Positions 1 through 51,100 of a DNA stretch of 64,000 nt are shown here, one piece after another. This DNA is from Paraphysoderma sedebokerense (taxonomy: Eukaryota; Blastocladiomycota; Physodermatomycetes; Physodermatales; Physodermataceae), in NCBI GenBank assembly GCA_025602915.1, contig JAHLJZ010000032.1:173013-237012 (forward strand), in the 5' to 3' direction. The translations under genes were made by a program, and so were the position numbers. The notes under the pieces are model-generated. The model was not told the DNA's origin. It saw nothing but the letters and a program-made list of their open reading frames with translations, and ran no database searches. How positions within the stretch are numbered: the first letter of the stretch is position 1; every line of letters begins with the position of its first letter.

Positions 1-3000
1 ACGTGGTCGATAATAGCCGAAATGACGATAAGAATTTTTACAATATTCCATTTATCGGCAAAGAAGGCTCTGAAGATCAATGAAAAGGTGAGTGACATAA
101 CGAGTAAATAATGCCTCTTGCAATTAACGGCAGACGAGTACCTGTAACCTAACCCCACAAAGAGCATGATTATCTCGACAACGTAAGCTGCAGTGAAAAT
201 GATCTGAGAAATATCCAAGAATATGCGTAAAGCTTGCGGTGCTGTTGTGATCAATGGAAATACCCATGTAAGACCAGGGTCAAATATAAGACAGATCATA
301 TAAATTAAACAGCATACCTCCATAATGATCAATGGCCATAAGTGCAATATTCAGACAAACAATTGCTATGCATCCATATTCAAACTTCGTGTTCAGAACA
401 ACCTTCTGAAATTTTTCATGAAATTGGTTTTTTGGAATCTGAGGCGGAATTGGAGGGCGGACAACAAATAAAAATCGTAGATTGGTGAGGCGATCCTTTT
501 GTTCTTCGGTCAGCAATTGAAGACCTTTCAGTTTTTCTTGATAATGCTGTAAAGATAATAATTTACTTTATCAATATAATCTATGGTGAGTTTGCGAATA
601 CAGAAGGCGCTACCTTGAGGTTATCGAAAATAACACCAGTAACAACTGCTAGAAAGAACCAAGACCCAATAAATTCAACTATAACAAAAAACGCTGAAGC
701 AAGAGGGGTAGAATCTCTCCGCGGTTGCCTATCCACGGCGGTCACATCCATATATCTAAATTGCAACATTATTAGCATCGGATGAAACTGTCGAGACGAT
801 TAGAGTAGACTGTACCTGTACATGTCATTGGGCCTGTTGAATAGGATGAAACGATATCAGTGTCCATCCGAGACTAGTAAACCAACAGCATTACAACTTA
901 CCATCCTTCCTGGAATGAAATCACCAGAACCGACAGCAGACTGTGGAAGATATTATCATAGTAGAATCTATAAGGATACCACAGTCGTTCCGTCGACGCT
1001 CCGGTCGCTGGATCAATGAATGTCCCCACGCAATCTTCCTTTCCGTTCACCGAATCGTCATTACATTGCCAACCTAGCCCTCCAAACACATGTAGTCCAA
1101 AAATTGAGGCGAGAAACAGAAACATTAAGAACGGAATGATAATCGTCCTCAACATCGGAATAGTTTTCATAATTGCAGTCGTGACGATTCTTAACGGTTT
1201 ACTCAATTTGATTAACTTGACCACTCGTACAACTCGCAACACTCTGTATATTTTCAGTCCAAGAAGATCAGAATTTACGGTAATCCACGATATAATCACG
1301 ATGAAAATGTCGAGCCAATTCCAAGCTGATTTGAGGAAGGGATCATCTCCTTTGATTAACCGACTGGTAAATGCGTTTAACAATACTTCTATTGTGAATG
1401 CTATAGCGAAAAACAGATCTATTGTAGCTAATTCTTTGGGTCGATTTTCGGGGGTTGGGCCATCAAAAGCTAGTGCGATACAACTCCCGAGGATTAGAAG
1501 GAAAGAAAACCAAGCGAAAATAGTGCCGCGAACAAACTGTTGGAGAATTTTATAAAAGGATTTAAAATTCGTTTGAAGTGAAATAAGGGAGCTCGACATG
1601 GGATTCGATGCAAAATTGGAGTTGCGATTGAGTGAGCGATGGGGTGTATTTGGAGGAGGCCGGCCAATTAACGATGAATTCAGATTTTCTTGTTGCGGAC
1701 TGAAAAGGCTTGTGGAAGGAGATAAGGAGGGAGGATTTTGGCTATCAGCCGCGTCCACTCGGCCAACTTCATCGGTCATTGAATGTTCGACTATGATACT
1801 TGGAGCTCTATTGTGGTCGTCCGTCGTTGAGACTTTATTGGCCTCCTCCTCTCCTGCAAGCTGTCGTCTATCCGAAACAATTTTCTGTTCAACGATAAGC
1901 GATATTCGGAATCCCATATTGGGAGATATCGGACTATTCGAAGTGGGGTCGACAGCTTGCAGTTTTCGATGAAGTTTTTCAGTATCGAGTGATAGTGAAA
2001 TCTGTGCTGGGGAGCGGATCGTCAAATCATTTTTCTTGCTGTCATGGGTTGGACTTATGGGTAATTCAGCTTTTTTGGCGTCTGTGCCAAAATATTGGCG
2101 AACATCGGCTTTGGCTATGAAGTTCAATTCATTAATAAAATGACTCTTTGAACTGACGCATCAGGGACATACCGGCTAACCGCTTGACGAACTTGAATTT
2201 CGCTTTGTTTTTTTCTTTTGCCAATCTAACTATAGTGTTCATTTCATCTTGAAATGTAGTGATTAAGATCGCCAATAACATTTGCGACAACACGAATCCA
2301 CCAATTACAATGACAATAATTGGAAATAAAGTCGCCCACAGTCCGCTGGCCTTTGCTACACTAGCTGCAACATCATTCCAATTTTCAACACTATACAATT
2401 GAAATGTTGATAACGAAGCGTAACCAAAGGTGTCAAAGTGAGCTCTCGGGCGCCCCAAGTCGGACGCAGTTGGATCGAAATTTAATCTGTCGGAAAGACT
2501 GGATGCCCAAACATGCAAACACAAATACGCCTATAATCCATATTGCCCCCAACGATCGTAAAAGCGGCCATGCATCAACTATAATTTTTATCAATCGCAA
2601 TAATGGTTTCGATAGGCGTAAGAGGCGCAGAAGACGAAAGGTTCGTAAAAATGCACGAAATACTCGGAATATTGACAAAGTTGACACTTGTCTTGTTGGA
2701 GATAGCAGATCAGCCAGAGAAACAATAGTAACGAGACCATCCAGTATGTTGACAGTAGATTTACAATAATTTCTAGGAAACAAGGCGACTAATTTGGACA
2801 CCAGCTCAATTGTAAACAGAATAGTGCAAACTTCATTCACAATGTCTAAATTGAAAGAAAAGGTCGGCGACATATTGTGATGGTGAGCGGCCAATGCGAC
2901 AGTGTTTGCGATGATAATACTCATCACCCCAAATTCGAACCATTTTGAGCAAATCAAGCGATATGCGTATTGCCGGAGGGCTGGCAGTTTTTGATACTCG

Positions 3001-4206
3001 CTTTCGGTAAACCGAAAATCTATATTCCCAATTGCACTTTTTCCAGATGACGCACTTCTGCCATCAGAGCCGTTGGGAGAATCAACGGAGAGAACGGGAA
3101 AGGAGGAGCCATTATTGTCCGGTGAATTCGGAGACGGCAAGTTTTCAGCAGACTCCTCAATGACGCTGCATAAAGAATTAACAACAACGGATACAAGTAG
3201 CTGTACGAGAATGTAATTTCCTATAAATATGACGGCCAAGAAATATACCATTGAAGCAGGTCCTGTGCTCCCTTTAATCTGGTCCATGATGGAGGACCAG
3301 CCTTCTCCGGTCAAAATCTAGTCCAGACAGACTGTTAACAAAATTTTTTGGTTGAAATTCAAAATATCAACGATTCAGACATACCTGAAAGATGGTTAAC
3401 CAGGATGATAAAAGGTTATCGAAAGAAATAATGCCTTCCGACGGATTTGGGGCAACGGGTAAACAGCTGGTTTCTGCAGGACACTGGTACCCTAAAGCCC
3501 GATTCATGGAACACATTTTTGTCTCATCCAAAATTGTCCCGTTGTTTGTAAAAACACAACGCTGATGGAGTTTCCCGCCATATAGTTTAGTCCCTGCAAT
3601 ACCCCACGACAAGAAAAAGACGAGAGACAGAATGCCGATGTCCCTCATCAAAGGCAGCGATCGATGTAACGCTTTTAAAATGGTGCCGACATGATGAAAA
3701 TACGACATTCTCGGCAAAAACTTGACCAAGAGCAACACTCTCAACGGGGATAAATCAGCAAGTGCATTCGCCCAAGAAATACATGAAAGTGCTGTCACTA
3801 AAACATCCATTCGATACCATGGGTCTGAGAGTACGCCGCGCACTCCGAGTGCGATACATTTGAGAAGAACATCGACAATGAATGCGATCGATAGGTAATT
3901 ATCCAGTTGAACAACTAAACGAAGCCATTCGGTCTGAGGTTGTTTGCGCGTATACGTAGCGAGGATAGCTCCGTTAAATAGTACGACGAGGCAAGTTACG
4001 AAAATGTACGGACGAGAATGTATGATAAGACGACATGTATCACGGAGGAATTGGTATTTTTGGACAATTAAGGAATTCGGCTGACCGTCATCGACTGATT
4101 TAATGTTAATGGTGTGATCCGGAACCGTTTTGTCGCCACCTTCTGTATTCTGAACGTTCTCTGAATGCATCTCTATGATTTCCGTCGGTTCCTTTGAAGT
4201 CTCCAT
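1..4206 (-). CDS. CCH1: CCH1-type four-domain voltage-gated cation channel, 3' part missing at window edge
   Basis: Pore subunit of the fungal high-affinity calcium influx channel of the plasma membrane (Cch1/NALCN-related, usually partnered with Mid1). Translation starts at 4206 (METSKEP). Domain I lies at about 4080-3190 and its S4 has few basic residues. An intron near 3387-3320 separates FQ from the pore sequence ILTGEGWSS. Domain II (about 3000-2230) has an arginine-rich S4 (FRVFRAFLRTFRLLRLLR) and pore FQLYSVENWND. Domain III (about 1550-620) has S4 YRVLRVVRVVKLIKLSK and pore SFQEGW. Domain IV starts near 516 and runs off the window. Glutamates occupy the selectivity position in domains I-III, which fits a calcium-selective pore; the domain IV residue is not visible. 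A polar, probably disordered linker at 2127-1600 joins domains II and III. The family and topology are secure; exact exon ends are inferred. Confidence 0.9.
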
Positions 4207-7789: not shown

Positions 7790-10700
7790 CTAATCAATCA
7801 CCATTCTCTCCTTCCCCTGCAACCTTACAATCCCTTCTCCAAGTGCTACTTCACTTTCACCACAATCATTCAAATTCCTCTTTTCCCCTTCGTCCACAGT
7901 AACAGGCTCTCCAGCTTTAATTCCATCCGTCGAAGCTGATCCCCCCACGTTAACAGTCTCGCCACTAGCAGATACTACAATCGGTTCAACACTTTTCTCG
8001 AGAACACCATTCACAATCCCGTTTAATGGTGGCATCGATGAATGAGGAGGTAAGATTGAACCTGATGAGCTTAAAATAAACGAACCAGAAGCAGAAGAAG
8101 TTGGGGGCGAGATCCGGGTAGGAGATAACATCGGCGGAATGGTAGAATCAGATGTATCAATCCGATCTAGACGTAAATTGGGATTATACCCTGGCTTACG
8201 CGATTCTGTAGTTGTGAAAGTAGGTGGAGGCGGTAGAGGCAATGACGGATTTCGCTGATCGGAAGTTGTTGTAGAAGTTGAGATGGTAGACCCAGAGCGG
8301 GAGGACGACGTTGAAGGACCAGAGGAATCAGAATTCAAGCTATGCGATTTTTTAGTTTTCTTTCCCACCATTGGCATTTTATCAAGTAATGAGGATTTCA
8401 TTTTTTGTTTAATCCAACTATTACCGTTCCCACTTCTTGAGGATTTCTTTGGCGGTGAGCGGCCCGTAGATTTCGATTTCGATGAGGACAAAGGAGGATA
8501 AGGAGAAGAGACAGCTGAAGACGTTCTAATCGGAAGTGAACTCGACGGCACAGCAGACGGCGATGAAGCATGAGGAGAAACATTCCCAGAAAGCGAAACA
8601 CGACTTTCCACCATCGCTTGCAAGGTCTCCGATCCAACCATCATAGAATGCGTGGGTCTAGAATTCACTACTTTTTTCCCATTGCGATATTTCTCTTCCT
8701 CATCATCACCCATTGAACGCTGTCGCTCCAATCTTTCAATCTTCGCCATCTCATACCGCTCTTTAATTCGTTTTTCCATTTCCGTTTCCTCTTCGGCACT
8801 GACATTGTCAGCCTTGCCATGAGCTTCCGTCAACTCTACCTCTTCACCCGGTTTCATATCATCCGCTTCGTTCTCTGTTTCCTCAACCGCCACACCATCT
8901 TCCTCTTCATCGTCAGCATCATCACCTTCACTCTCAATTTCTCGCACTTCAATAGGGACCTCATCTTCGTCAAAATCTTCATAACCATCACTATTATTGA
9001 CATGTTCGGCATTAGAGAAATCGCTATCATCCATGTCTCCGTCATTTTCGAATTCAGTATACCCAACAGGACGATGTGTACCGTCGATATGATCATTGGT
9101 AGTGTTGGTCGTTGCAGTAACATAGCCATCAGACTCGTTTTCGTCATATCCATTTTCAATTCCGTTCGGCTTTTGACGATTGACTTGGTTACTGGCTGCG
9201 CCAGGAAGACTCGTGAAAGAACTCGACCGAGAAATTGATTTCGGACTTAAACTTTCATTTTCACCATACTTTCTTCTTACCCTGTTTCGTCTTTTTAACG
9301 TTTCCCTTCTCTCACTTTCAGTTTCTTCTTCATCTCCCACGGCCTTTCTGTCCCCTTCATCAGCTAATTTCTGTGCATCAGTATCACCTTTAACATCGTT
9401 CATCCTTTCACGTTCCATCTTCTTCCACATTTCCCTTTCTAACTTTTCCCTTTGAACTGCCAAAAATTGGGCATAGGCTATCCCCCAACTCCCTCTTTTA
9501 GTCTTATCCCCACCAGCAATTCTATCTCGATCTTTCCTGAGGCTACGACTAACGCTTTTACGTCTTGAAACACTAATCCCATTCGGTTTTGCCGATTTAA
9601 TTCGTGATTGCGGTTGATGATGTTGCTTTGGATGATCTAAATGAACCTGGTCCTGTCGTGACTCAAGTGAATGATAGGGATGAGAAGAACCGTAAGATGA
9701 AATAATTGGTTGAGGCGGAACAAACAATAACTCCTTTTTCGATCTTGACTTGGTTCGTTTTATCCCATTCACAGCATTCTGTTCCTTTTTCATCCCTTTT
9801 TTTATCTTACCTATTCCCACACCTGGTAAGTAGCGAGACCCAAAATTACTTGAAAAAGAGGTAGACGAAGTGGAGATGTGAATATCCGGGAAGTGATGTT
9901 TCGACACTTCAATTCCCATCATTTGTGATAGAATTATAGCGCTCATTAATTCTTTCTTCTCTTTTCGATTTTGAGGGGTGAAATAACGGTTTAGTAGAAT
10001 TGCCAGGTAAATATCCCACGGCGAAGAAGTCGGCTTGCTGAGTTGGGACTTTGTGTGAACTGAGGCAGGGAAAAATGGTGATGAAGGAGAGGTGGATGAG
10101 GTAGGAACGGGTGAATAAAGATGATAAGAAAGGGTCGTTCTCCAGCACGGATGCGAAATCAATTGGAGCAAACGAATCGTAAAGGCTAAGATTTGAGATG
10201 AAGTTAGATAATGTAGCTGATCACTGTTGCCATCTCCATCTGTTTTTCCTTCCGAGTTGAGTCTTTCAGCTGCATGAACACTTTTATCCCCAATTTTCCC
10301 ATCACCGACTTGTTGGCTGTTTGGTGAATTTCTCGATTCGGAACACGACGACTGATGCCCATGAAGCAACCATTTCGGTAACAACAAAGTTAATACAAAC
10401 GGATAACAGTCTATAAAAACCGCGGGCAATAAAGTTTTAGTTAACTGATGCAATCTCTGAATTTTATCCAATCGCTCTTTCATGACGATTATGCTTTCTC
10501 CGTCCTTGCCAACTCGTCGTCCTTGTTGTCGAACCATGAAATCAAATGACCTAGAATAACGCCACACTGAACCCACTAAAAACTCGAATTTGGCAATCAC
10601 CATTTGAATCACAATAACTTTGTAAGGTGCTGGAACAAAGTAACTGATATTCAGGGGAGGTGTTGCCAATTTCTGTAATAAATAAGTGAGCCTTCGTGAA

Positions 10701-12313
10701 GCGTGAAGCAAATTGGTAGTCGTGGAATCGGAATCAGACGGACTGGGGTCGACGATGGAAGCACTATTAGAGGCAGGGACCGAAGATGACGGCGAAGTAG
10801 CGGAAGCAGAATTGTTTAAATCGCCGGTACATATTTTCATGACGAATGTTTGAATGTCGGTTAATACTTGATCGATAGCTGATACTAAGGCTTCACCATT
10901 CACATTGTATTTTGTAGTTTCTGATGCCTTTTTAGCTTGTTCGTTCCATTGACTTTTTTCATTACCTTCAACCCCATCGGGTTGTTCTGTATTGATCGAG
11001 TTTGAATGGTCGTCGACGGATTGGCTCGACAAAGCAGATGTTTCTGAATCAGGAGGATTAGATAAATCGGAATTTTGTAACAATTCCGTATGCACCAAAG
11101 TATCTAAAGCCACGAAATCGGTCAAAAAAGTGGGCGATTCACCAGGTTCAACACTATCCGCATTTTGATTTTGCGTTGAATGATACTGTTGATGATGCGA
11201 CTTCGGAATTGGAGATCCAGTGGGCGACTGAATCGGTGATAGGTCTGTGATAGGTGTTGAAATTGAAGAATTGGTAGGAGAAGAAACGATATAGTAAGCG
11301 TACGACTCGGAAGCATTGAGTAACAGTTGAGTAAGCGTTGTGACCGCAAAGAATGAACCTTCGTGTTGATCAGATGTGAATGTAGAAACCGGAACTTGAG
11401 GCAATATTTCTACATTCGATGGCGGTTGAAGTGGTTGGATCTGTTGGGAGTTCGGTCTCGAAGTCGTCGCTGATGTTGTGGAGTTGATATTGGGGGCCGT
11501 GGAGTCAGACGAAGACTCGAAACCTGACTGTAAAGTGAGATTACTGTGACCATCGTTCTTTACTCCTTCCCCAGAATTTTGATCAGTACTTATATTTTGA
11601 CTTCCAACCTTACGTTTGTTCCATTCGTCCACCCATTCCATCAAATCAGGATAAACCATCAACAATTTATCCAACAACAATCTGTTCCCCCCATTCAAGG
11701 TATCGCAGTAACTTTCCAACCAGCTCCAACAGTTCTCTAATCCTTCTTCCCAACCTATTTCGATGCACACTCCTAATACACCTACCGCCGTATCTACTTT
11801 TTTGTTGTTCGTGGCATTGAATTCAGCGGCGAACTGCTTGGTGTACATCAGTTTGAGGGTGGTGTAAAATGATAGCATGTCTTCACCAGATACCCTAGAA
11901 GGTAATTTTACAATAATTTGTTTTTGAGATTGTAAATCTTCTGTTACATTTGTTGAAGGCAAATTCGGATTAGAAGATGAAGAAGCGTTTGTACTGTTTG
12001 TAGCGGCTGAATTATTCGACGTTGTGGAATGGATAGTTCCAAATTGTTGCGCTGATGAGTTTGTAGAATTGAATGACGGTAGACTTGGCAGTTGATTATT
12101 CAAATGACCTGACGGTTGAACAAGATGAGAAAATTGGTCTTTGAAGAAATCACACTGAGATAGAATGATTGAATGTAGATGCAGTCTCGACGGGATGTTC
12201 ACTTCGGCACAAAGTTCTCCTTGATCATCAAAGTCGAGGGTGACATCTGAATATTGCGGGGTATGCCACAAAATCTCACCGACAGATGGATAAGTTCTTA
12301 GAGGTGGATTCAT
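7790..12313 (-). CDS. Large BTB/POZ-domain protein with long disordered acidic and serine-rich regions
   Basis: A single uninterrupted reading frame of 1507 codons from the ATG at 12311-12313 (MNPPLRTYPSVGEILW), the longest intron-free gene here. The N-terminus has a BTB/POZ signature (YSDVTLDFDD, then RLHLHSIILSQCDFFKDQF), interrupted by a Ser/Asn/Thr-rich insert and continued by a helical part (IGWEEGLENCWSWLESYC). The centre has ordered helical stretches (NISYFVPAPYKVIVIQMV and LLPAVFIDCYPFVLTLLLP). The C-terminal half is low complexity: Lys/Arg-rich segments, a strongly acidic block near 8850-9000, then Ser/Thr/Pro-rich sequence. BTB proteins often dimerise or serve as cullin-3 adaptors, but nothing here identifies a partner. 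I do not recognise an orthologue by name. Confidence 0.8.
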   Translation of the reverse strand: MNPPLRTYPSVGEILWHTPQYSDVTLDFDDQGELCAEVNIPSRLHLHSIILSQCDFFKDQFSHLVQPSGHLNNQLPSLPSFNSTNSSAQQFGTIHSTTSNNSAATNSTNASSSSNPNLPSTNVTEDLQSQKQIIVKLPSRVSGEDMLSFYTTLKLMYTKQFAAEFNATNNKKVDTAVGVLGVCIEIGWEEGLENCWSWLESYCDTLNGGNRLLLDKLLMVYPDLMEWVDEWNKRKVGSQNISTDQNSGEGVKNDGHSNLTLQSGFESSSDSTAPNINSTTSATTSRPNSQQIQPLQPPSNVEILPQVPVSTFTSDQHEGSFFAVTTLTQLLLNASESYAYYIVSSPTNSSISTPITDLSPIQSPTGSPIPKSHHQQYHSTQNQNADSVEPGESPTFLTDFVALDTLVHTELLQNSDLSNPPDSETSALSSQSVDDHSNSINTEQPDGVEGNEKSQWNEQAKKASETTKYNVNGEALVSAIDQVLTDIQTFVMKICTGDLNNSASATSPSSSVPASNSASIVDPSPSDSDSTTTNLLHASRRLTYLLQKLATPPLNISYFVPAPYKVIVIQMVIAKFEFLVGSVWRYSRSFDFMVRQQGRRVGKDGESIIVMKERLDKIQRLHQLTKTLLPAVFIDCYPFVLTLLLPKWLLHGHQSSCSESRNSPNSQQVGDGKIGDKSVHAAERLNSEGKTDGDGNSDQLHYLTSSQILAFTIRLLQLISHPCWRTTLSYHLYSPVPTSSTSPSSPFFPASVHTKSQLSKPTSSPWDIYLAILLNRYFTPQNRKEKKELMSAIILSQMMGIEVSKHHFPDIHISTSSTSFSSNFGSRYLPGVGIGKIKKGMKKEQNAVNGIKRTKSRSKKELLFVPPQPIISSYGSSHPYHSLESRQDQVHLDHPKQHHQPQSRIKSAKPNGISVSRRKSVSRSLRKDRDRIAGGDKTKRGSWGIAYAQFLAVQREKLEREMWKKMERERMNDVKGDTDAQKLADEGDRKAVGDEEETESERRETLKRRNRVRRKYGENESLSPKSISRSSSFTSLPGAASNQVNRQKPNGIENGYDENESDGYVTATTNTTNDHIDGTHRPVGYTEFENDGDMDDSDFSNAEHVNNSDGYEDFDEDEVPIEVREIESEGDDADDEEEDGVAVEETENEADDMKPGEEVELTEAHGKADNVSAEEETEMEKRIKERYEMAKIERLERQRSMGDDEEEKYRNGKKVVNSRPTHSMMVGSETLQAMVESRVSLSGNVSPHASSPSAVPSSSLPIRTSSAVSSPYPPLSSSKSKSTGRSPPKKSSRSGNGNSWIKQKMKSSLLDKMPMVGKKTKKSHSLNSDSSGPSTSSSRSGSTISTSTTTSDQRNPSLPLPPPPTFTTTESRKPGYNPNLRLDRIDTSDSTIPPMLSPTRISPPTSSASGSFILSSSGSILPPHSSMPPLNGIVNGVLEKSVEPIVVSASGETVNVGGSASTDGIKAGEPVTVDEGEKRNLNDCGESEVALGEGIVRLQGKERMVID

Positions 12314-12754
12314 GTCGTGGATATCGATGTGTGTGTTCCAAACGTCAATCAGCAAGACCGTATCCGAGCAGCGAAAAATAAAAAGCGATTAGATATACAT
12401 TATGCAAGGTATGTATTGAAGTATTAATTCGAAATGAATATGCTTCCGTGCGCAGGATAGAGAGAGTGATTTTAGAGTTGTTATTCCAGATAAGGAAAGC
12501 AAATGATGCGTTTTCCTTTCCTCGATGTTTAAGAGCGAATTCTTCCGTCCAAAAACAACGGGCACGTCGCAGAGCAGCTCATTATTCGTATTTGATTTTG
12601 CTGTAAATATATATATGCATATTTAATCTGTTGGCATTCAGTTAATTACAATACGAATTAATATACAAAATATTTCTAACGGAATGAATCTCGATGCCAT
12701 CCACATAGTTTTCTACGCTAGTGGAAATCTGACAAGCATCAAAAAATTCTTGCT

Positions 12755-18408: not shown

Positions 18409-21400
18409 ATGAATGCGATAGACGAAGATATTACTTTGGTAATTATTGAACAGTATTCCGTCCCACTTGATAATCGCTATTGTCTAGCATTCTAGCGTTT
18501 GGCGTAATTTCTGTTACAAGATATCACTCACTCTACATCCGTCCTATCGTTTAGATCAATTATTACCTCCGGCGCAAACACTACCAAACAGTGCAACAAA
18601 TATGCGATGCGAAACTAAAACTCAGAAGTGATCCGATTTATCTGTTTTGGAAGGGGGCGGCTTTTGTCTTTTTAGGTAAACTTCAACTTTCTTAGACTCC
18701 TCAATGATCGTGATTCGTGTTTCCGGTACCTTCGGCCGTTTGATATTCCTGTTTGAATGTGGAAGTGTTTTTGAAGCCACCACGATATGTGTGATTGACA
18801 AAACCATATTTCATTGGGTAAAGATCGACCGAATGAAGCGATTCGAGAATTATGTCAGCACATCGATAAAAGAGACATGGTGCTTGCGTGTCCCGTTGCT
18901 CTAATGAATTCCCACTCAAAATGCGAGGTTATTGGTACGAATCTTCAAAGGCTTCGTTAGAATGTAGTGAATGAGTTTGTTTTCTCAAACTTGTGTCTCT
19001 TCTTTTGAATAGATCATGAAAATATCTCTGAGCTCGAAGCTAAATTTACGATAGCTACATCTTCCTCCTCCCTGACGGAAAATGCGTATATCCTTCTGGT
19101 CATGTTTTATCTGCATCTCGGGCAATACGAAAATGCCAAAGAATGGGCAGAAAAAGGTATTAAATTGTGGAAAGAAAGTTATTGGATGGCGTCTTTTCTG
19201 GGATGGATCTGTCTACTGAACGATAACGGTGGCTTCGATGCGCCCGCCTTTGCTAGTGGAAAGGAATGGTTTGATAACATCTTAGAAAAGAATCCCAGAA
19301 ATGTTGATGTACGTTTTTAACACGAATACCTATCACTTGAAATAATGACTGGCAATATTGAACGACGTCTTCCAACCTGTAGGCTCTCCTCGGTCGAAGT
19401 CATTATTACCGGTACCACTCATCCCATGTCTCGAACGCTCTTGACGCATTATCTCAGATCATTGTGTTCAATCCTACTTTTCTCCCCGCCTTAATCGAAG
19501 ATATGTTTTGTACCTTTCAAAATGCGGATGCGTGGGATCAATTGAACGAAAAAATTCAACGCATTGCCTCGGTAAAGGAGGACTGTATAGATGCTTGCTG
19601 GGTAGACTGTTTTATTGAGCTCGTCAAGAATGGAAATACGAAAGACGTAAAACGAAAAATGAATATTTTGGTTAAGGTTCGACTACATTCTCTTGTCCCT
19701 CCTTCGATGATTCCATGTGTACTCTTGCTTCAGCTATTAACTGAGTTCTCAATGGTCTTTCTACCAATTCTGTATTTCCTACAAATTAGGCTGTGAATAG
19801 ATCAGAATCAGCCAATCCTCAAATTATGCTTTCAATAATTCAAAGTTTCAGTCGACTACCCGGTCAACAAGAATGGTACGATGGGGTTCTTTTTCCTCCA
19901 CTGCGTAAAGTGGACCAAAGCAATTTTCCTGACGGTTTAGAAATTTAGCATTGCTGATACTCTCGTAACGCTGGCAGAACAGCTTGTAAAGTTGAATCCT
20001 AAGAATGCGAATTATAAGTGTGAACTAGCATTTTTGAAGTATCAGCAAGGTTTTACTTTTCGATTTATGGATCCACTCTTGTAGGTGAAGATTATCTGAC
20101 ACTTGCAATCTCTGATTCTTAAAGGCCAAATTGAGACGGCCCTATCCATATATAATAATGCACTTAGAATGGACCCCGACAACTTAGAAGCATTGGAAGG
20201 ATTAATTCGGTGTGAATTTAGTTTAAACAGATTTGATAGTGTTACCAAAGAATTTGAACTGTTAAAGGTTATTCAACAATCATCTGGTGAGTTATTATTG
20301 AAAATAATATTAGGTTTCTTATCGCGAGATTGTAACTGTTTAATGCATAGGTACATCGGCGATGACCTTGTATCTGTCCGCCGTGCTAGCTTGGAAGAAG
20401 TCCGGAAACGCAGAGCTGAGACTGAAATACTTAAATGATGCTATCCAGTGCGCATTGAGTTCAGCAACTGATATGCTATTGAGGTGCCACAAGTTTTCTA
20501 CTAAATGCAGCGAAATCCGTCTACTAACCTTATGCACACTCTGCTTAATAAGTTTCGATTACTACGTTGCATTAAATACCTACCTGCTTTTGACAATCAC
20601 AAGGGAGATTTCGCCGTTATTGTCGCCGGAAGACATGTCTGAGAATGATAATCAGCTACTAGAGGACCTTACGGATGCATTCGATTTAATTGTCAAAGTG
20701 GTACCAGCATGTGTAGAAGCGTTGTATGGTTTGGCGACTACGAAATTTTGGAAGCAAGATATTGTGAAAGCAAAGAAATATGTAGAAAAGTGTATTGCAG
20801 TTGACAGTGGATATTTTAAGGTTTGATTTTTTTGTTTATGCTATCCTTAATATTGAATTACTAAATGCGAGATGTACAGGCACATTTGCAAATGGCCCAG
20901 ATCCATCTCCATGGTTCACAGCCGAAATCGGCATTACAATCCTTAGATACCGCTTTATCCCAGAATTTTGAAATTCGTAGTAATTTTTCATTCCATGTTT
21001 TAAAAGGCAAATCGTTAAAGATGCTGGAAATGCTGGAAGATGCAAGTGCGTCGTTGAAAACGGCAGGTGATATTTTGGAACGAGGTAAATGTTTTGGCTC
21101 AATAACATCCAGCATACCATGCGACCATCATTACAGATATCTAACTATTTATAAACGTACCTAATGTCTGATATGAGTAAAGGCGGAGTAGACTACTCTA
21201 TGTCGGATATACTTTCCTATTACTCCGAATGCATGGAAGTGTATTCAAAACTGACAAATTACGTACGTCTAAAATTTCAATTTCAAAGTATATCAAACTC
21301 TGATATCAAAATGTGTAATTATTTCGCTATGGCAGACACAAGCTTCAAAGATTATACAGGAAGCATTTAGAAAGTATCAGCGGACCCCTATCGAAAGCAA

Positions 21401-37320: not shown

Positions 37321-38708
37321 ATGTCAATATTAACTAATTCAAAGCCCAGTTCCAACGCATCTCCCTTCGCGCTCTCGTCGAATGCCGAAACTACAGCTGA
37401 TTCAATCCTAGAATTATCATGCCTGACTGGTGTACCTATCCCATCCAAATGTCCATTGCCAGCTTCAGTGTATAACGACGGAATAGCAGGACTTCTATCT
37501 CAATTGACGAGCCACACTGATTGGTCTGAGACATTTCAGAATAGGTTACATGAAATAAAATCGCAAAAATCAAAGGAACACACTTATCCCAGAGTGCCGA
37601 AAGACATGAAAATAAAGCCAAAATCGCCAACAAGCCAGCAGAAAATACTGGCGAAACTGGAGGAAATACAACAATATATATCCTCCCTGGGGTAACATCC
37701 TTCTCTTTGACTTTGAATTTATTATATTCTCGGTATTCAACTAATGACTCCCGCTAAAGATACAATCATCTTCCCATTACATTCTTTCCTCTCAAAAAAG
37801 GTCGTTCCTTGAAGTCACATTCCGAGACTGCCCGGCAAATTATAGCATTATCACTCCCTATCCGCTGTCTTGAAGCTGTTATTGTAGGTATATATTTAAC
37901 CCATCATATTCCAGATCTACTGAGAATTCCAGTTTCGTTTAAGAGTAAGTCCCTCGCAAATGAGTCCCATATGGACAGAGCTGAATCAGTGGAGAACAGA
38001 AAGAATAAGAATATATTCCGACATATTGTTATGGCCGTAAGAATTGGAGATAGATGGGGAGCATTAGGACTTAGTCGACGACAGGACTTGATGAATAAGG
38101 ACGCGACTTTTGAGGTTCGTTTAACTGTCATTACGGTAGGCTTACTTAAAAGGCAATATAACGGACAACTTTTCTAATGCAGTCATTGACAGAGTTGTTA
38201 AAAGATTATGAACGATGTTATGATAGGAGTAAGGTCTATTAAAAGCGTTATGAGTATAGACCTATTAACTTATTAACTTTCCTCAATCACTAAATTAAAG
38301 ACAAACATAAGCTAGCAAAAATCACCATTGGCCTGCCAATTACCCATGATCCTTTCAGCACTGAAACTATTCATTGTAAGACACTGTAAATCCTAGGACT
38401 CTCAAGGACCGTAACTGGCATGCTCACCCAAAAATTTAGGGAAATATCTTTCTTTGTCCATTAATCAACAATCCTGGGCCGAGATCAACGTTCAAGTAGA
38501 TAAGTTAAACAAACTCATTCGAAGCAAGGATAAGTTTGGATGGGAGCTATTGCTAAAAGGTAGATCAGGCCAGACTAGGGACAGTGACGATAATCTATTC
38601 AACAAATCGGACACTGAAGCGCTGGAGGACACTCATTCAGAAAATATCAATAAGATGACAGACAGTGAAAATAACCAGAAGTTGAGATTGAGCGGACACG
38701 GTATTTAA
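37321..38708 (+). CDS. VASH: Vasohibin-family tubulin tyrosine carboxypeptidase
   Basis: Vasohibins remove the C-terminal tyrosine of alpha-tubulin, usually with the small partner SVBP. Five exons join in phase to about 370 residues, against 365 in human VASH1. Visible blocks in order: GVPIPSKCPLP, EEIQQYISSLGYNH (human QKYISSLGYNH-type), LPIRCLEAVIVGIYLTHHIP (human LPIKCLEAVILGIYLTN), FRHIVMAVR, RWGALGLSRRQDLM (human RYGALGMSRREDLM), SLTELLKDYERCY, GLPITHDPFSTETIHWK (human SVSHDPHSVEQIEWK). The catalytic Cys (RCLEA), His (FRHIV) and Ser (LSRR) are all in place. An insert of about 20 residues precedes FRHIV. Upstream in-frame ATGs (to 37159) could extend the N-terminus. No SVBP gene is evident in the window. 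Confidence 0.88.
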
Positions 38709-38865: not shown

Positions 38866-40484
38866 CTACAACTCTTCTTTATTGAAAATCTTACGAATAT
38901 CTATAAGAAAAAATAAATACATATGAGAAGAGATATTCCAACATGTAACTGGGGTAAAGAAAAGTAATCTTACTTTTCTTCTCATCGTCAGTGAGTTTGG
39001 GCGGGAAAATCACTTGGATTTCGACGTACAGATTGCCAAACTTATCTGGGTCTCCGTTAACCGGCATTCCAGCCTTTGGGATTGTATGGACGTATCCATA
39101 TTGCGTTACTTCTGACCTGCTAACAGTGACTTTTTTTCCATCTAGATGTTCAATTTGCTTTTCAAATCCTAGTAAAGCTTCTATCAATCCAATCGATAAT
39201 TTGGTATATAAGTTATCGCCTTTTCTGGTGAAAGTCGGATGTGGCTCGGTCTTGAGAACGAAAATAATGTCTCCGGGTGCATAGTCAGGTGATTGGTCTC
39301 CTTCTCGCTCGAATACCTGTAAAGTAAGGGTGTGTCAAAGATTGGACGTCCTGAGGCGAATGTCGAAGCGGAGAGAAAGCGTACAATTTTTTGCCCATCG
39401 ACCATACCAGGGTCAATATTAATACTAATCTGCGAGCTCCCTCGTTGAACTTTGGACCCACTACACACAGGACATTTGGATTTGACAACCTTTCCTTTGC
39501 CACCGCACACATCACAGCTATTGTAGCAAATTGGCACGTCAGCATATCATTAAATTGACTACAGGACAACAATCACAAACGTACTGCATCTGCATCTGCT
39601 GATATATTCCAGGCGCTAACATCTGCTTGATAACTTTGATTCCGCGACCTTGGCAGGAAGAACAAGTGTGTACGTCAGACGAATCCTTTGCACCAGTGCC
39701 GTGGCAATGGGGACAAATAATTTGTTTCGCTATTTCGACCTTAAGGTTGGGCGGAGCCAATAAACAGTCAGTTCAGATTCAAAATAGAGCAAAAAAGAAT
39801 CTGAGAGATTTGAGCAGTCCAAGCAATTATACCTCAAACGTTTTTCCTAAATATAAATCTTTTAATTCTACATCCAAGGTAACTTGTACTTCTGGTCCCC
39901 TCTTTTCTGCTTGTTCATGTCGTTGCCTTCCGAATCCAAACCCGCCGAATCTGAGACAAATTGAGAGTATAAATAGGACTGCACATTTTGATAGGCGATT
40001 CCTAAAAAAAACATACTGTGCGAAGATATCGAAAGGATCATGGAAGCCTCCTTGATTACCGTTTTGCTTCAAACCTTCTCGACCATATCTATCATAAACT
40101 TGTCTTTTCTCTTCATTGCTCAAAACCTCGTAAGCTAAATCGTCGGAAACGGAAGAGAAAAGTCAATATGTAAGTTCGCAAGAGATGGATCGTAATAGAA
40201 GCCAGCCGAATCGACAGGATATTTCAAATCTCAAAGAGCCAATTTCGTATAGTTTCTCATAGGAACTTGCCTTCTGCCAGCTCGACGAACTTTTGATCGT
40301 TCCCAGGGTTTCGGTCGGGATGATACTGCAGAGCAAGCTTCTTATAAGCCTTCTTTATTTCACGTTTGTTTGCATTTCGAGGCACACCGAGAATTTCGTA
40401 GTAGTCGGTCTGGGCGAGGACGCTGACGAATGCGAGCAAAAACAGAAATAGAAAGATGAGATTGCGCGGATAGAGGACCAGCAT
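38866..40484 (-). CDS. ER-lumenal DnaJ co-chaperone (Scj1/ERdj3 type) with KEEL retrieval signal
   Basis: Hsp40 partner of BiP/Kar2 in the ER lumen. From the ATG at 40484 a signal peptide reads [20 protein letters not shown]. The J domain follows ([23 protein letters not shown] in [30 protein letters not shown]), then a short Gly/Phe region (FGGFGFG). Four zinc-finger repeats are [24 protein letters not shown] and CPVCSGSK, as in Scj1 and class A DnaJ. The substrate-binding domains end with [24 protein letters not shown]. The last four residues, KEEL, resemble the KDEL/HDEL retrieval signal. The signal peptide, the four fingers and KEEL together place it in the ER lumen. An in-frame upstream ATG at 40706 would bury the signal peptide and is less likely. 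Confidence 0.88.
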
Positions 40485-45041: not shown

Positions 45042-47772
45042 ATGTACAACAGCACCATTAACGAAAACTACAAGTTGGGTGAAGATAAATCTACAGATAT
45101 CTTAGTAAAGACGCTTTGCCTTATTGGCCCATTTGGGCATTTTCGAATGATAAGAACACTGAATGAGTACTGTTGAAAATGGTATGTTGGTACATGGGTT
45201 ATGTATTGTTTCATGGCAGCTTGCAATAGTCCATTATATTGATAAATTGGTTCTTGCAAATGGAAATATGTAAATTTCATTCACGGTATTCGGGCAAAAT
45301 TAACCGATATTATTATCAGTAGACTATCGAACGCTGGGCAAACTTGGCGAGGGCACTTTTGCACAAGTTCTGCGAATGGGACATAAGACAAGTGGAAAGA
45401 CATATGCAATGAAGCGATTCAAGAAGAGGTTTCAAAGGTTGGAGTCCAGTCGCAGCAATTGTTGGAAGTTGAATGGTCCGTAAAGGCGTTTAATGACTTA
45501 CTCTATTTCGCTTTTGAAAATCGACAGCTTCGAGGAAGTGAACTGCCTACGAGAAGTTCAAGCATTGAAATTACTCAACCCACATCCCAACATTGTGACG
45601 TTGGAAGATATATTATTGTTTGTATACGCCATTTTCAAAAAAAAATTTTATACTAGTACTGACATCACACTTAACCGACTTAGCGAGGCAAACTCCGGCA
45701 TGCTTTATCTAGCGTTCGAATTGATGGACTGCAGTCTTTATGATGTGATATCAAAGGCCGGCGTTACCACCAACGAAGCGACAGTGGCATTATGGTTTTT
45801 TCAGATCTTTAAAGGGTTAGAGTATATGCACGAGTATGTTGGCATTTGCGGATTATTCTATCTCTTCACCATAAGGATCTCCACTCACATCACGTTCTTC
45901 GCCATAGACGAGGAATATTTCATCGGGACATCAAGCCAGAGTAAGTGGATATGCTTCTGTTAACACATCTCCGACCACTAATAGATTTTTATTCCAAATC
46001 AGAAATATTCTGATATCGGACAATGTGGTCAAGTTGGCAGATTTCGGATCATGTCGCGGAGTGTATTCAAGGCAACCATACACGGAATATATAGCGACCA
46101 GATGGTACAGAGCGCCTGAAGTACTCCTGGGATGTGGATATAATTCGAAAATGGACATCTTTGCATCAGGTTGCGTACTGTTTGAGACTTTGACAAAGTA
46201 AGTTACACAACAGCTTGTTGTCGATAAAAATGATAACCGTCCTCAACCATTCTGATATTAGAAAACCAATATTTCCCGGCGTCGATACGTTTGATATGCT
46301 GAAGCGCATACATGATGTCCTCGGCTCTCCGCCTGCCACCACTTTAGATCGAATGCTAAAGTAATTCTTCCATCCTATCTCTTTTTGATTGTTATCTGTG
46401 CATTAATTGAATCAATCATACTATAGTTCTAAACAACCGAAATTTAGCTTTCCCGAAACAAAGGGTACGAGCATCAAAAATCTTCTTCCTCTTTTCATAA
46501 GCGAGGAATGCGTGCTTATTCTTGAATCATTACTACGATATGACCCTGCGGAACGGTAAATTACTTCTCTGAATCAGGCTCTCTATCTTGGAAGGTGTTG
46601 ACGCTATTTGCCCTACAAGCGTTTCTGCCACTCAAGCTCTGCAGCATCCGTTTTTTAGCGACATTGCGTTGTCGAAATTGCCGCTGTCTCAACTCGAATG
46701 TTATACCCACCATTTAACTTCTCCACCAAATAGTAGTTCTTCGGTAGTATCTGCCTCAATTAACAGCAAGGTAAAGGACTAGATAGTTATCTATCGAATG
46801 ACAGTGACTTGATATTAACAATCTTTTCAGGTGCCACCACTTCTCCCGTCGCGATCGAAAAGCCACATTCAAGTGCCTTTGCCTCAACCCCAACCGTCAT
46901 TTTTAAAACTACAGCATAGTGACCCATCAATCATGCCTATTTTAACCTCTGAAAATGGATCCAGCCCCGCTTCACACTTACCGCATCATCCCTCCTTCAT
47001 TCCTCGTAGAGTTGATGGTTCTAGCATGCACAATCACAATCATTTGCAATCTCAACTGCTCCAACCTGAGCGTCAGCGCGATTCCAGCAAGATTAATAAT
47101 CCGATCATACATCGTAGCAATCTACCAGTTTTGCCACATGCATCCAGTTTGACTAAGACATCCTCGGTATCACCGGAACAAACATCGTTCAGGCTACCGT
47201 CCCTCTCGTTTTCGGCTATTTCCCGCACTCATATTAATAGCAATTCTCCAAATCATAAACAGATTATGTCAAAGCAAACTTCCAAACAACTCGCTACTAA
47301 CAAATTTCCACTTCTGGTCCCTTTCCCAAATACGCGTACTTCACAGTCGTCTAGTCGTCGCGACAAGATTTCTAATGCTTCCACGTCCACAGTCTCAACA
47401 CTTTCGAATTCTTACCAAATGACATCCCATAATCTCCAGCAGCAAGAATCAGCCGCTCATATACCCCGTTTGTCTGACATCGTACTGAACCCAAAGATGC
47501 CGTCCGATCTAACTGTCGGACTCCAAACTGTCTTGACAGCGAACTCTTTGAGTTCTCCTCATAAATCTCCATTGCAAAAAGTGGAGGCGCGCAACAAAGT
47601 CAAAGAACCAGAAAGAGCTTACGCGGGAATCATATTTAGAGGAAAACTGATGGAAGATGCCGATGACACTAAACCTATGAATCTGACTTCCAGTTCGTTG
47701 ATCCCAGACAGAATTGATAATAGGAAATCCAACGTAAAGGGTAGGAAACCGGTTGGTTTGCTCAAACCCTAA
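45042..47772 (+). CDS. MOK: MOK-type protein kinase (RCK/MAK family)
   Basis: Serine/threonine kinase of the RCK group (MAK, ICK, MOK), whose members act on cilium length and IFT. Exon 1 is [12 protein letters not shown]; across an intron it continues [20 protein letters not shown]. The catalytic lysine is in [30 protein letters not shown] and [12 protein letters not shown] follow. The catalytic loop is rebuilt over two introns as [20 protein letters not shown]. Next are [20 protein letters not shown] and [13 protein letters not shown]. The animal MOK signature is FGSCRSVYSKQPYTEYISTR, nearly identical and distinct from MAK or ICK. A TEY activation loop is visible. After about 46790 a single exon encodes a long Ser/Pro/His/Gln-rich C-terminal tail, ending [10 protein letters not shown]. 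All key kinase residues are present. Confidence 0.92.
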
Positions 47773-48171: not shown

Positions 48172-51100
48172 TTACGGCAATGTGGTAAAAACAGCATTCG
48201 CGTCCTTCTGATATGTCTGCTTTGCTCCGCCATTACTAGTATTCACTGGCAAAGGTGATACTCCAACCACGCCTTCCATTATTTTACTTTGTTGTATCAT
48301 CGCAGGGGTACCACCAGTACCGCTGATTGTTGCGGCGACATTTTGCAACCTTTCCACACTTTTCTTTAGCTCCAATCTATCCCTAACCAAACCAGCCCGA
48401 GCTTTCTCCAATTCAACCTTTTCATTTTCCAACATGCTTTCCATTTCTTCAAATTGCTTTAACTTCAACTCGATCTTCTTCATTTGAAGTTCGACGATTT
48501 CAGTGACTAGTGACCGCATTTGAGATTCTTCGTAAGATGCGATAGCAGATGCTTTGGATGACGCTGCAGTAAGGGCGAGTTGTGCAGCTTTTTGAATGGG
48601 TGTGAGCTGAGGCTGATGCGTCGGTGAAACACCATTTGGCACAGAGCTGCCTGTCCCTGTCGGTTTGGCAGGACTGCCAGCATCAACCTCCATATCGTTT
48701 TCTTTGCCTTTTTCTTTACTTTTCTCCATCGCCACGCCATTTGAATCTTTGTTAACATTTCCAGCTGCAGTCAATTCCTTCAACGCTGCCTTCGCTGCTT
48801 CGCTAGCAACCCCAGGATTCACGACACTGCTCAAAAAAGCGACTAAGCTCATAACCGGATTTTCACTTTCATTAAACGGAACATGTTGGTACTGTAAGGG
48901 ACCCAAATCACTAATTTTTGATCCATTTGTTCCTAAATAAGGATCTTCAATTGGTAGCTGTAAGAAATGGAGAATACATTGTTCTCTTGTTTTTGTACCA
49001 ACGTGTGACGAAACAGCGGACCAGTCATCATCGTACATTTCAATTGCCTCGAGCAGGAGAAGAGTTTCTTGGTCGGTCCATTCGTTCCCAGACGATGATG
49101 GGGTCGATTCTAAACGCAGAAAATCACCCGAGTACATAGTTGAGGGGAAACGACCTTCGACATAACAATTCGGACACACTTCAAAGTTCGGTGTTTTCAG
49201 ACTATGATAGCGAGAACGTGTACAATCTACTCCACAAGTGAAACAAGTGAATTGCTTTTTTTCAATCGTAGATTCAGAGATTAAAAGCTGAGCAGTTGTA
49301 GAGGGCTTTGAGTAAACATCCTTTCGGAGTGCGAGATTGGGATCAATTTTGCCGACTGATTCAGACGCTTTAGGAACGGTGCTTGGGGGTGGCTGCGACG
49401 CGCCGACTGTACCCGAAGCCGACGAAGCAAGGGAAGACTGCGGAACGACGGCTGGGAGGAAAGGTTGTAATCCTCTAGGCGTGTCAGCCGTGATGCGGAA
49501 GTGCCCAGTGAAAGGAGGTCCAATATGAGATGGCCGACTTTCGGAGTCAACCTGAGTCAATTTTAAGAAGGTTAATAAAGAAATTCATTATGGAAAAGTG
49601 CGTGACGGCAACGAACCTGATAATTGATCAGACCCCACTGCTCTAAGAAGGCATGAACTCTAATTATAGCACACACATCACCTGCTAAATTTCTTCTGCA
49701 AGCTGTCACGGTTAGATACTCGCTAGGGTTTAATCTGTAGGTATTGATCATAAAATCTCGATAATCTTTATAAATCGTAGGAGTTTTTGATTTATTTTTG
49801 TTATTGAAGAATTCCGGTAAGGCTTTCTTTTCGATGTCGTGGATGGCGGTCATATCAAACCATGCAGAATAAGAGGGAATAACAACTTCACTGCTCTGTT
49901 GGGCAAGGTAACGTCGGGCTTCTTCGTCAATTTTGCCATAATCCACCTCTATCACTTTTTTTGCCTCTTGTTCTGCTGACTCGTCTTTTTGTTCTTGATC
50001 CACATCCATATCAGTTCCGTTTGCGCTTTCATTTGTGACAATTTCCGCTCGCTTCGGACTCTTTAGGGTGACAACACCATGAGAAATATTGCCAATGTCT
50101 CCACCTTCGATAGGTTCTAGCTCTGCCTTCTTTGTCCTCGAGGACCCAGAAGCGATTCTCTGTTCCTCAAGATCGATTTCTGCAACGTTGCTGGGGTCCG
50201 AAACAGTTTTGTCTAATCCCTCAACAGTAGAAAAGTCACCCCGCGGTCTTTTCGATGACCACAATTCTCCTGACCAACTTCTTTTCAAACCAGCAATAAC
50301 ATGCTCATCTGACTTGATCTTCCGCCCTGGAACTTGAGGTTTATTGATTTCATAATCTTCTTCGTTCATCAATTCATTGAATTCAACACTATCACGTAGC
50401 CATTGGGCGGTGACTTCCCACGGCCCAGTATGCTGAATAGACGGTTCCGGATTGCCAGGTTGAAACTTATCGGAAAGTGGAACCCAAGCGTCATATGAAT
50501 CGGGATAATACCACCAATGAACAAGAACCTTGTCGGCATGCTTATCAATAGGTCTGAGCCATTCACCATCGGCTTCTGTTTCGGTGGGTGGATATATTAT
50601 ATGGGTAGCATGGGTGGTATCTTCAGTGACATTACCTACAAAACCCGAATGGGTGAGTTAAGAATAAACAAATGAGCATGGTCAACTGACACTGAACGAC
50701 ATCTCGCAAACATGGGAAAGTATGAGGTACCGTTCAAATCAGAGACATAATCTGCAAGCTCTAACTTCATACTATCATCAATGTTGTCTGAGAACGCTAC
50801 TCGTAGAGGCTCCAGAATCCCGGACTCGACAAGATGATTATGAATATACTGTATCATATCCACTGTATTCTTTTCATCTTGATCATTCCAATCAATGCTT
50901 CTGGCATATTTGAACTGGAAGCACGCCTTCAGAATGATATACAAAGGTGACTCTGAGGAAGCGGAGAAATCTCTGAAATACTTGGACGGGATGCGAAGTA
51001 TGTGACGAGGTTTGTTTGGGGCGCGCCGACCAAGGACGTCTTCCTGAAACTGCTGGAGATTTGCAATGAATGCCGCAATATCAGATGCGGAGAGATTGGA

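Follow-up and report, generated by a model that had tools for sequence, protein, structure and literature searches.

A gene in the window (the whole 64,000-nt stretch of DNA analysed here) resembles the vasohibins, and this raises the question of whether a flagellated fungus might detyrosinate its own alpha-tubulin, and with the help of which partner. From comparison of the sequences, we consider it very likely that the gene encodes a functional vasohibin acting on the organism's own alpha-tubulin, probably together with a candidate SVBP encoded on another contig, C5.

Gene model, family and active site

The gene consists of five exons (Table 1) that join in phase, as a sequence-only reading of the locus had proposed, to give 371 residues and a stop codon ending at 38708. 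Its introns are all GT-AG (68, 68, 72 and 64 nt). A later start for exon 2, at the AG just before 37801, was dropped because the earlier acceptor gives back YNHLPITFFPLKKGR, which aligns with YNHTGTQFFEIKKSR of VASH1. The next gene downstream, in tail-to-tail orientation, is one for a DnaJ-type chaperone, recognised by eye (window 38891-40162, reverse strand).

Table 1. Features of the vasohibin gene, with positions in the window
Feature	Position	Strand	Remark
Exon 1	37321..37691	+	Divergent N-terminal region; stops right before the YNH motif; Pfam match begins at residue 80
Exon 2	37760..38114	+	Catalytic core: Tyr125, Lys136/Lys137/Arg139, Arg159, Cys160, His212, Ser229, Arg230/Arg231, Leu234
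Catalytic Cys160	37866..37868	+	VASH1 Cys169, by alignment
Polar loop K185-F210	37944..38015	+	24 residues against 7 in VASH1, a 17-residue insert
Catalytic His212	38022..38024	+	VASH1 His204, by alignment
Ser229	38073..38075	+	VASH1 Ser221, by alignment
Exon 3	38183..38228	+	In-phase splice, alignment to VASH1
Exon 4	38301..38375	+	KITIGLPITHDPFSTETIH; in-phase splice, alignment to VASH1
Exon 5	38440..38708	+	WK motif, then variable charged C-terminal tail and stop codon

The Pfam Vasohibin profile (PF14822) matches the spliced protein over residues 80-309 (E 6.7e-58; score 196.3 bits, where the cut-off is 24), and a search of the 27.3 Mb genome with this profile returned one match, the gene in the window. 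A PDB sequence search (E<=0.1) gave 19 matches, the best at E 2.1e-41, and every one bears the name Tubulinyl-Tyr carboxypeptidase 1 or 2. We regard the membership of the predicted protein in the vasohibin family as solid, and the gene is, on these matches, a further member of a known family. The earlier claim of a vasohibin in a flagellated fungus is thus upheld by the profile match, by the VASH1 structures (about 2e-41) and by the fungal and flagellar genes described below. The match to solved VASH1 also points to a transglutaminase-like fold; exon 2 folded alone (window 37761-38114) gave a single-exon model without usable triad geometry (pLDDT 48.3, pTM 0.28). Scans of exon 2 against viral and genome contig collections produced 12 and 58 pattern matches, respectively, among which no relative was confirmed.

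For comparison with the human enzyme we used VASH1 57-306, which is identical to a PDB chain over 250/250 residues. Identity is concentrated in the core, where 61 of 123 aligned positions agree (VASH1 125-247), and falls to 13/43 over VASH1 57-124 and 2/18 over VASH1 287-306. Fungal residues 26-108 align with VASH1 57-107 no better than shuffled sequence (960 of 2000 shuffles score as well), in agreement with the divergent N-terminus noted earlier. The catalytic residues had been described as intact, and the blocks around Cys (RCLEAVIVGIYLT), His (FRHIV) and Ser (GALGLSRR) as nearly those of animals; the three residues are indeed kept, and all three blocks lie within exon 2. Two views of vasohibin catalysis have been put forward, one with a Cys-His-Ser triad and one with Cys-His and the carbonyl of Leu226 (PMC6937246), and Leu234 of the fungal protein corresponds to L226.

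The fungal protein has in common with human VASH1/VASH2 the catalytic Cys, His and Ser and the tail-binding residues Tyr134, Lys145, Lys146, Arg148, Arg222 and Arg223 (VASH1 numbering), which are all identical. In the positively charged tail pocket (K145, K146, R148, K168, R222 and R223) five of six residues are the same and K168 is replaced by Arg; elsewhere, D155 is replaced by Glu. Mutation of K145/K146/R148, K168, S221 or R222/R223 lowers the activity of human VASH1-SVBP (Liu et al. 2019, PMC6937246), and an extract of a further study reports that K145E/R148E lowers microtubule binding and names residues at microtubule interfaces 2 and 3 (PMC7449697). The fungal protein differs from the human enzymes in the K168R change, in a 17-residue polar insert before FRHIV, in its divergent N- and C-termini, and in the loss of the tested residues of interfaces 2 and 3 (H268F, V270T, R234E, R299K and L303S). 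We think it most likely that the protein is catalytically active and removes the C-terminal residue of tubulin.

The polar insert before FRHIV

The sequence-only reading had placed about 20 polar residues before FRHIV; the insert itself stands, and its size is corrected to 17 residues more than in VASH1. Four in-frame GT-AG candidate introns spare both the SFK and the FRHIV blocks (30, 36, 45 and 51 nt). The 45-nt candidate (37945-37989) combines a consensus donor, GTAAGT, with a TCAG end, and its splicing leaves SFKMENRKNKNIFRHIV; the 51-nt candidate (37949-37999) has a GTCCCT donor and leaves SFKSKKNKNIFRHIV, exactly the VASH1 length. If either were spliced, the loop of the mature enzyme would be nearly VASH1-sized. 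Against this, the 16 introns that we accepted in seven genes of this genome measure 63, 64, 64, 64, 66, 66, 67, 68, 68, 68, 68, 70, 72, 73, 75 and 90 nt, a small set in which some of the solutions not chosen were 49 and 58 nt long, and in-frame candidates at least 63 nt long would remove the conserved SFK or FRHIV blocks. Because an intron of 45 or 51 nt would be shorter than all 16 accepted ones, we take the insert as probably coding, and consider its removal as an intron quite improbable.

A crude count of GT..AG spacings within the window gave no clear intron-length peak, and introns were therefore resolved gene by gene. For several of them the choice among in-phase solutions followed the family sequence or the better donor, and the solutions passed over were of 49 and 76 nt (TTLL9), 66 nt (alpha-tubulin), 105 and 138 nt (TTLL6), 77 nt (DnaJ) and 73, 58 and 69 nt (LYS2). 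A DnaJ intron of 93 nt was dropped for its weak donor, and four exon pairs gave no intron solution (a second TTLL9 pair, two more TTLL6 pairs and one DnaJ pair).

Tubulins, the reverse enzyme and the organism

The tubulin profile PF00091 has at least 11 tubulin exon matches in the genome (14 candidates, all scored). The one alpha-tubulin found among them (L003, exons joined over a 63-nt intron) ends GEEEENEEY, which answers the question, raised with the locus, of whether the alpha-tubulin ends in tyrosine. A beta-tubulin on contig C1 ends GEVEGETA, without Tyr, and other matches look gamma-, delta- and epsilon-like by eye. Two further beta-tubulin loci, L004 (C4:39351-42806) and L005 (C94:18574-22029), carry an 82-residue tail in place of the usual short acidic one, Ser/Asn-rich at first, then Gly-rich, and ending GGANMSQGVAL. 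These loci are identical over 3456/3456 bases and therefore represent a duplication or an unmerged haplotig.

The ligase profile PF03133 gave eight exon matches in the genome, belonging to three genes that by eye are TTLL6-, TTLL12- and TTLL9-like (contigs C95, C6 and C9). A human TTL query, its sequence matched to a PDB TTL chain, gave two matches at E<=10, one to the TTLL12-like gene on C6 (32% over 153 residues, E 6.6e-5) and one to the TTLL6-like gene (31%, E 0.001). Human TTLL12 is described as without tubulin tyrosination activity in vitro in the consulted part of PMC3520985. With the profile and the human query together, no canonical TTL was found in the genome, where intron-split exons could hide one. 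A search for MATCAP gave no match in the genome and none in 14 controls either, so its absence is not established. Should the VASH-SVBP pair hold, and should the fungus have a single EEY alpha-tubulin and truly lack a tyrosine ligase, detyrosination would be a one-way mark, an idea that we put forward as speculative and rather doubtful. If true, microtubules would age irreversibly, and the mark would be reset only through synthesis of new alpha-tubulin, for example once per zoospore generation.

LYS2 and the chitin synthases together indicate that the organism is a fungus. LYS2 (alpha-aminoadipate reductase, TIGR03443) is present on C1 in seven pieces that cover positions 1-1374 of 1390 and sum to about 1607 bits, where the cut-off is 1030 bits, no single piece passes it, and related enzymes match below it in 12/14 prokaryote controls. 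The chitin synthase profile PF03142 (Chitin_synth_2) has 46 matches in the genome (best 4.8e-204) and also matches 4/14 prokaryote controls. Two pairs of these matches have equal scores or spacing (C62:139590-140745 with 144331-145483, and C17:295532-298890 with 314392-317750), and appear to be duplicates of recent origin, tandem or segmental.

The sequence-only reading had also seen IFT139 and MOK in the window. For IFT139, four neighbouring exon matches to PF25062 cover positions 1-221 of 222 (C32:191567-192556, window 18555-19544), with a profile that is not fully specific (matches in 6/14 prokaryote controls, above the cut-off in 3). For MOK, a frame at window 45908-46198 shows a resemblance by eye. 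IFT139 and the delta- and epsilon-like tubulins recognised by eye point to a flagellum, and the organism seems to be a fungus with swimming spores.

Elsewhere in the window, all on the reverse strand, two neighbouring ORFs at 901-3317 carry Ion_trans domains (PF00520, E 2.2e-32 and 3.3e-37), and look like repeats within a single large voltage-gated cation channel, and an open frame of 1532 residues at 7793-12388 has no Pfam match at E<=0.001. Neighbouring ORFs at 48175-50657 carry SWIRM, ZZ, Myb and SWIRM-associated domains, which would fit a chromatin remodelling subunit of the SWI3/RSC8 type.

A candidate partner and comparison with known systems

A search of the genome for an SVBP homologue, a check proposed with the locus, turned up a candidate on another contig with a marginal score: the SVBP profile PF15674 has one weak match, on C5 (16.4 bits, E 0.24; cut-off 27). 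The ORF concerned (C5:324905-324429, reverse strand) encodes 158 residues, basic and of low complexity in the first part and ending AWEKFRTEVYALNSLCSDFEKLQFLKSLNSTSG. Scored on their own, the ORF and its end reach 14.6 and 19.1 bits, and because all three scores lie below the cut-off we call it a candidate and not a member of the SVBP family. Among its Pfam scores, RdRP_1 (PF00680, E 0.021) is slightly better than SVBP (E 0.033), and in a PDB search (E<=10) SVBP was the sole sequence matched (E 1.5). GC content by codon position gave no clear signal for this ORF. The C5 ORF shares with SVBP/CCDC23 a core of the form R-x-E-V-Y-A-L-N...E-x-x-Q-F close to the C-terminus of a small, basic protein; it differs in its length (158 residues against 66) and in falling under the Pfam cut-off. 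On balance it is probably an SVBP orthologue, which is our estimate and not a calculation.

The enzyme that we propose would be a cysteine carboxypeptidase of the transglutaminase-like type. It would bind the organism's alpha-tubulin at its acidic C-terminal tail, which ends EEENEEY, and remove the terminal tyrosine, with the C5 protein as its probable partner. It would probably act on long-lived microtubule lattices, for instance in the zoospore axoneme; the role on microtubules of axoneme or spindle that had been suggested from the locus is inferred.

The main alternative is an enzyme that works alone, as an extract of PMC11761321 reports for trypanosomatid VASH, which is active without SVBP; the C5 ORF would then resemble SVBP by chance. 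The weak profile match (E 0.24) agrees with this, as does a 37-residue human SVBP query, run without a positive control, that found nothing in the genome at E<=10. On the vasohibin side, the 18 SVBP-contacting positions tested fall into 7 identical, 2 unaligned and 9 changed, the N-terminal ten being poorly aligned, and the changes include W78F and I104V, which are conservative, V91K, G97E, Q133G and T137L, which are not, and also A164S and I95S. P105, L132, Y134, H136, F141 and P166 are nevertheless retained there, and the C5 ORF itself speaks against chance. The SVBP residues that contact VASH are Q35, R36, E38, I39, Y40, A41, L42, N43, V45 and L49 (PMC6937246), and nine of these ten positions are identical (R36, E38, Y40, A41, L42 and N43) or similar (I39V, V45L and L49F) in the ORF, Q35F being the exception. 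The ORF also ends 9 residues past its QF, where SVBP ends 12 past its own. Aligned with human SVBP, whose sequence was confirmed, it scores 67, above the 54.5 reached at most by 5000 residue shuffles of the same composition (0/5000 as good), a test that is biased because the ORF was picked as the best match of the genome, the genome-wide E of 0.24 being the fairer measure. Weighing these points, we think an SVBP-independent carboxypeptidase unlikely.

More improbable still, in our judgement, is a protease of vasohibin fold whose main substrate is something other than tubulin. In its favour, PMC4866520 places vasohibins in a broad superfamily of transglutaminase-like proteases, and the residues tested at microtubule interfaces 2 and 3 are unconserved here. 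The tested residues of the tail pocket are, by contrast, retained with the exception of K168R, and EEY is the C-terminus of the alpha-tubulin found. A vasohibin that detyrosinates alpha-tubulin, probably with the C5 candidate, remains our preferred reading.

The sequence-only reading had presented vasohibins as best known from animals. A survey of 2016, as excerpted, already describes them as widespread outside animals, with fungi as the exception (PMC4866520), and a tree of 2022 includes fungal species, unnamed in the extract, among the sequences related to human VASH1/2 (PMC9108980), so that the wide spread and the fungal sequences were both in print. The present gene qualifies the 2016 statement on fungi, as that extract words it, at least for a flagellated lineage. 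We found no published description of a fungal vasohibin-SVBP pair, judging mostly from titles and the openings of abstracts, and, in the collection searched, no paper joining vasohibin with Chytridiomycota or tubulin detyrosination with early-diverging fungi. What deserves attention is the combination, in an apparent flagellated fungus, of one vasohibin with one alpha-tubulin ending EEY and a likely SVBP, where no TTL is evident. Such a combination of vasohibin, likely SVBP and EEY alpha-tubulin in a fungus would be a sign that animals and fungi inherited the two-part detyrosinase from their common ancestor. The organism, with one alpha-tubulin and one vasohibin found, would also make a simple model for probing the detyrosination mark on axonemes.

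Two further known systems are compared by description. Trypanosoma and Leishmania, flagellate microbes, likewise have a vasohibin alongside tyrosinated alpha-tubulin; according to extracts of PMC12714142 and PMC11761321, they differ in that TTL is present and SVBP was not found there, whereas in the fungus no canonical TTL was found and an SVBP candidate was. In Chlamydomonas, loss of VashL depletes detyrosination and leads to stoppages of IFT trains, as far as the consulted part of PMC11770126 describes it. The likeness to the fungus lies in a vasohibin/SVBP-related locus (PMC11770126, same extract), whose function in the fungus is putative.
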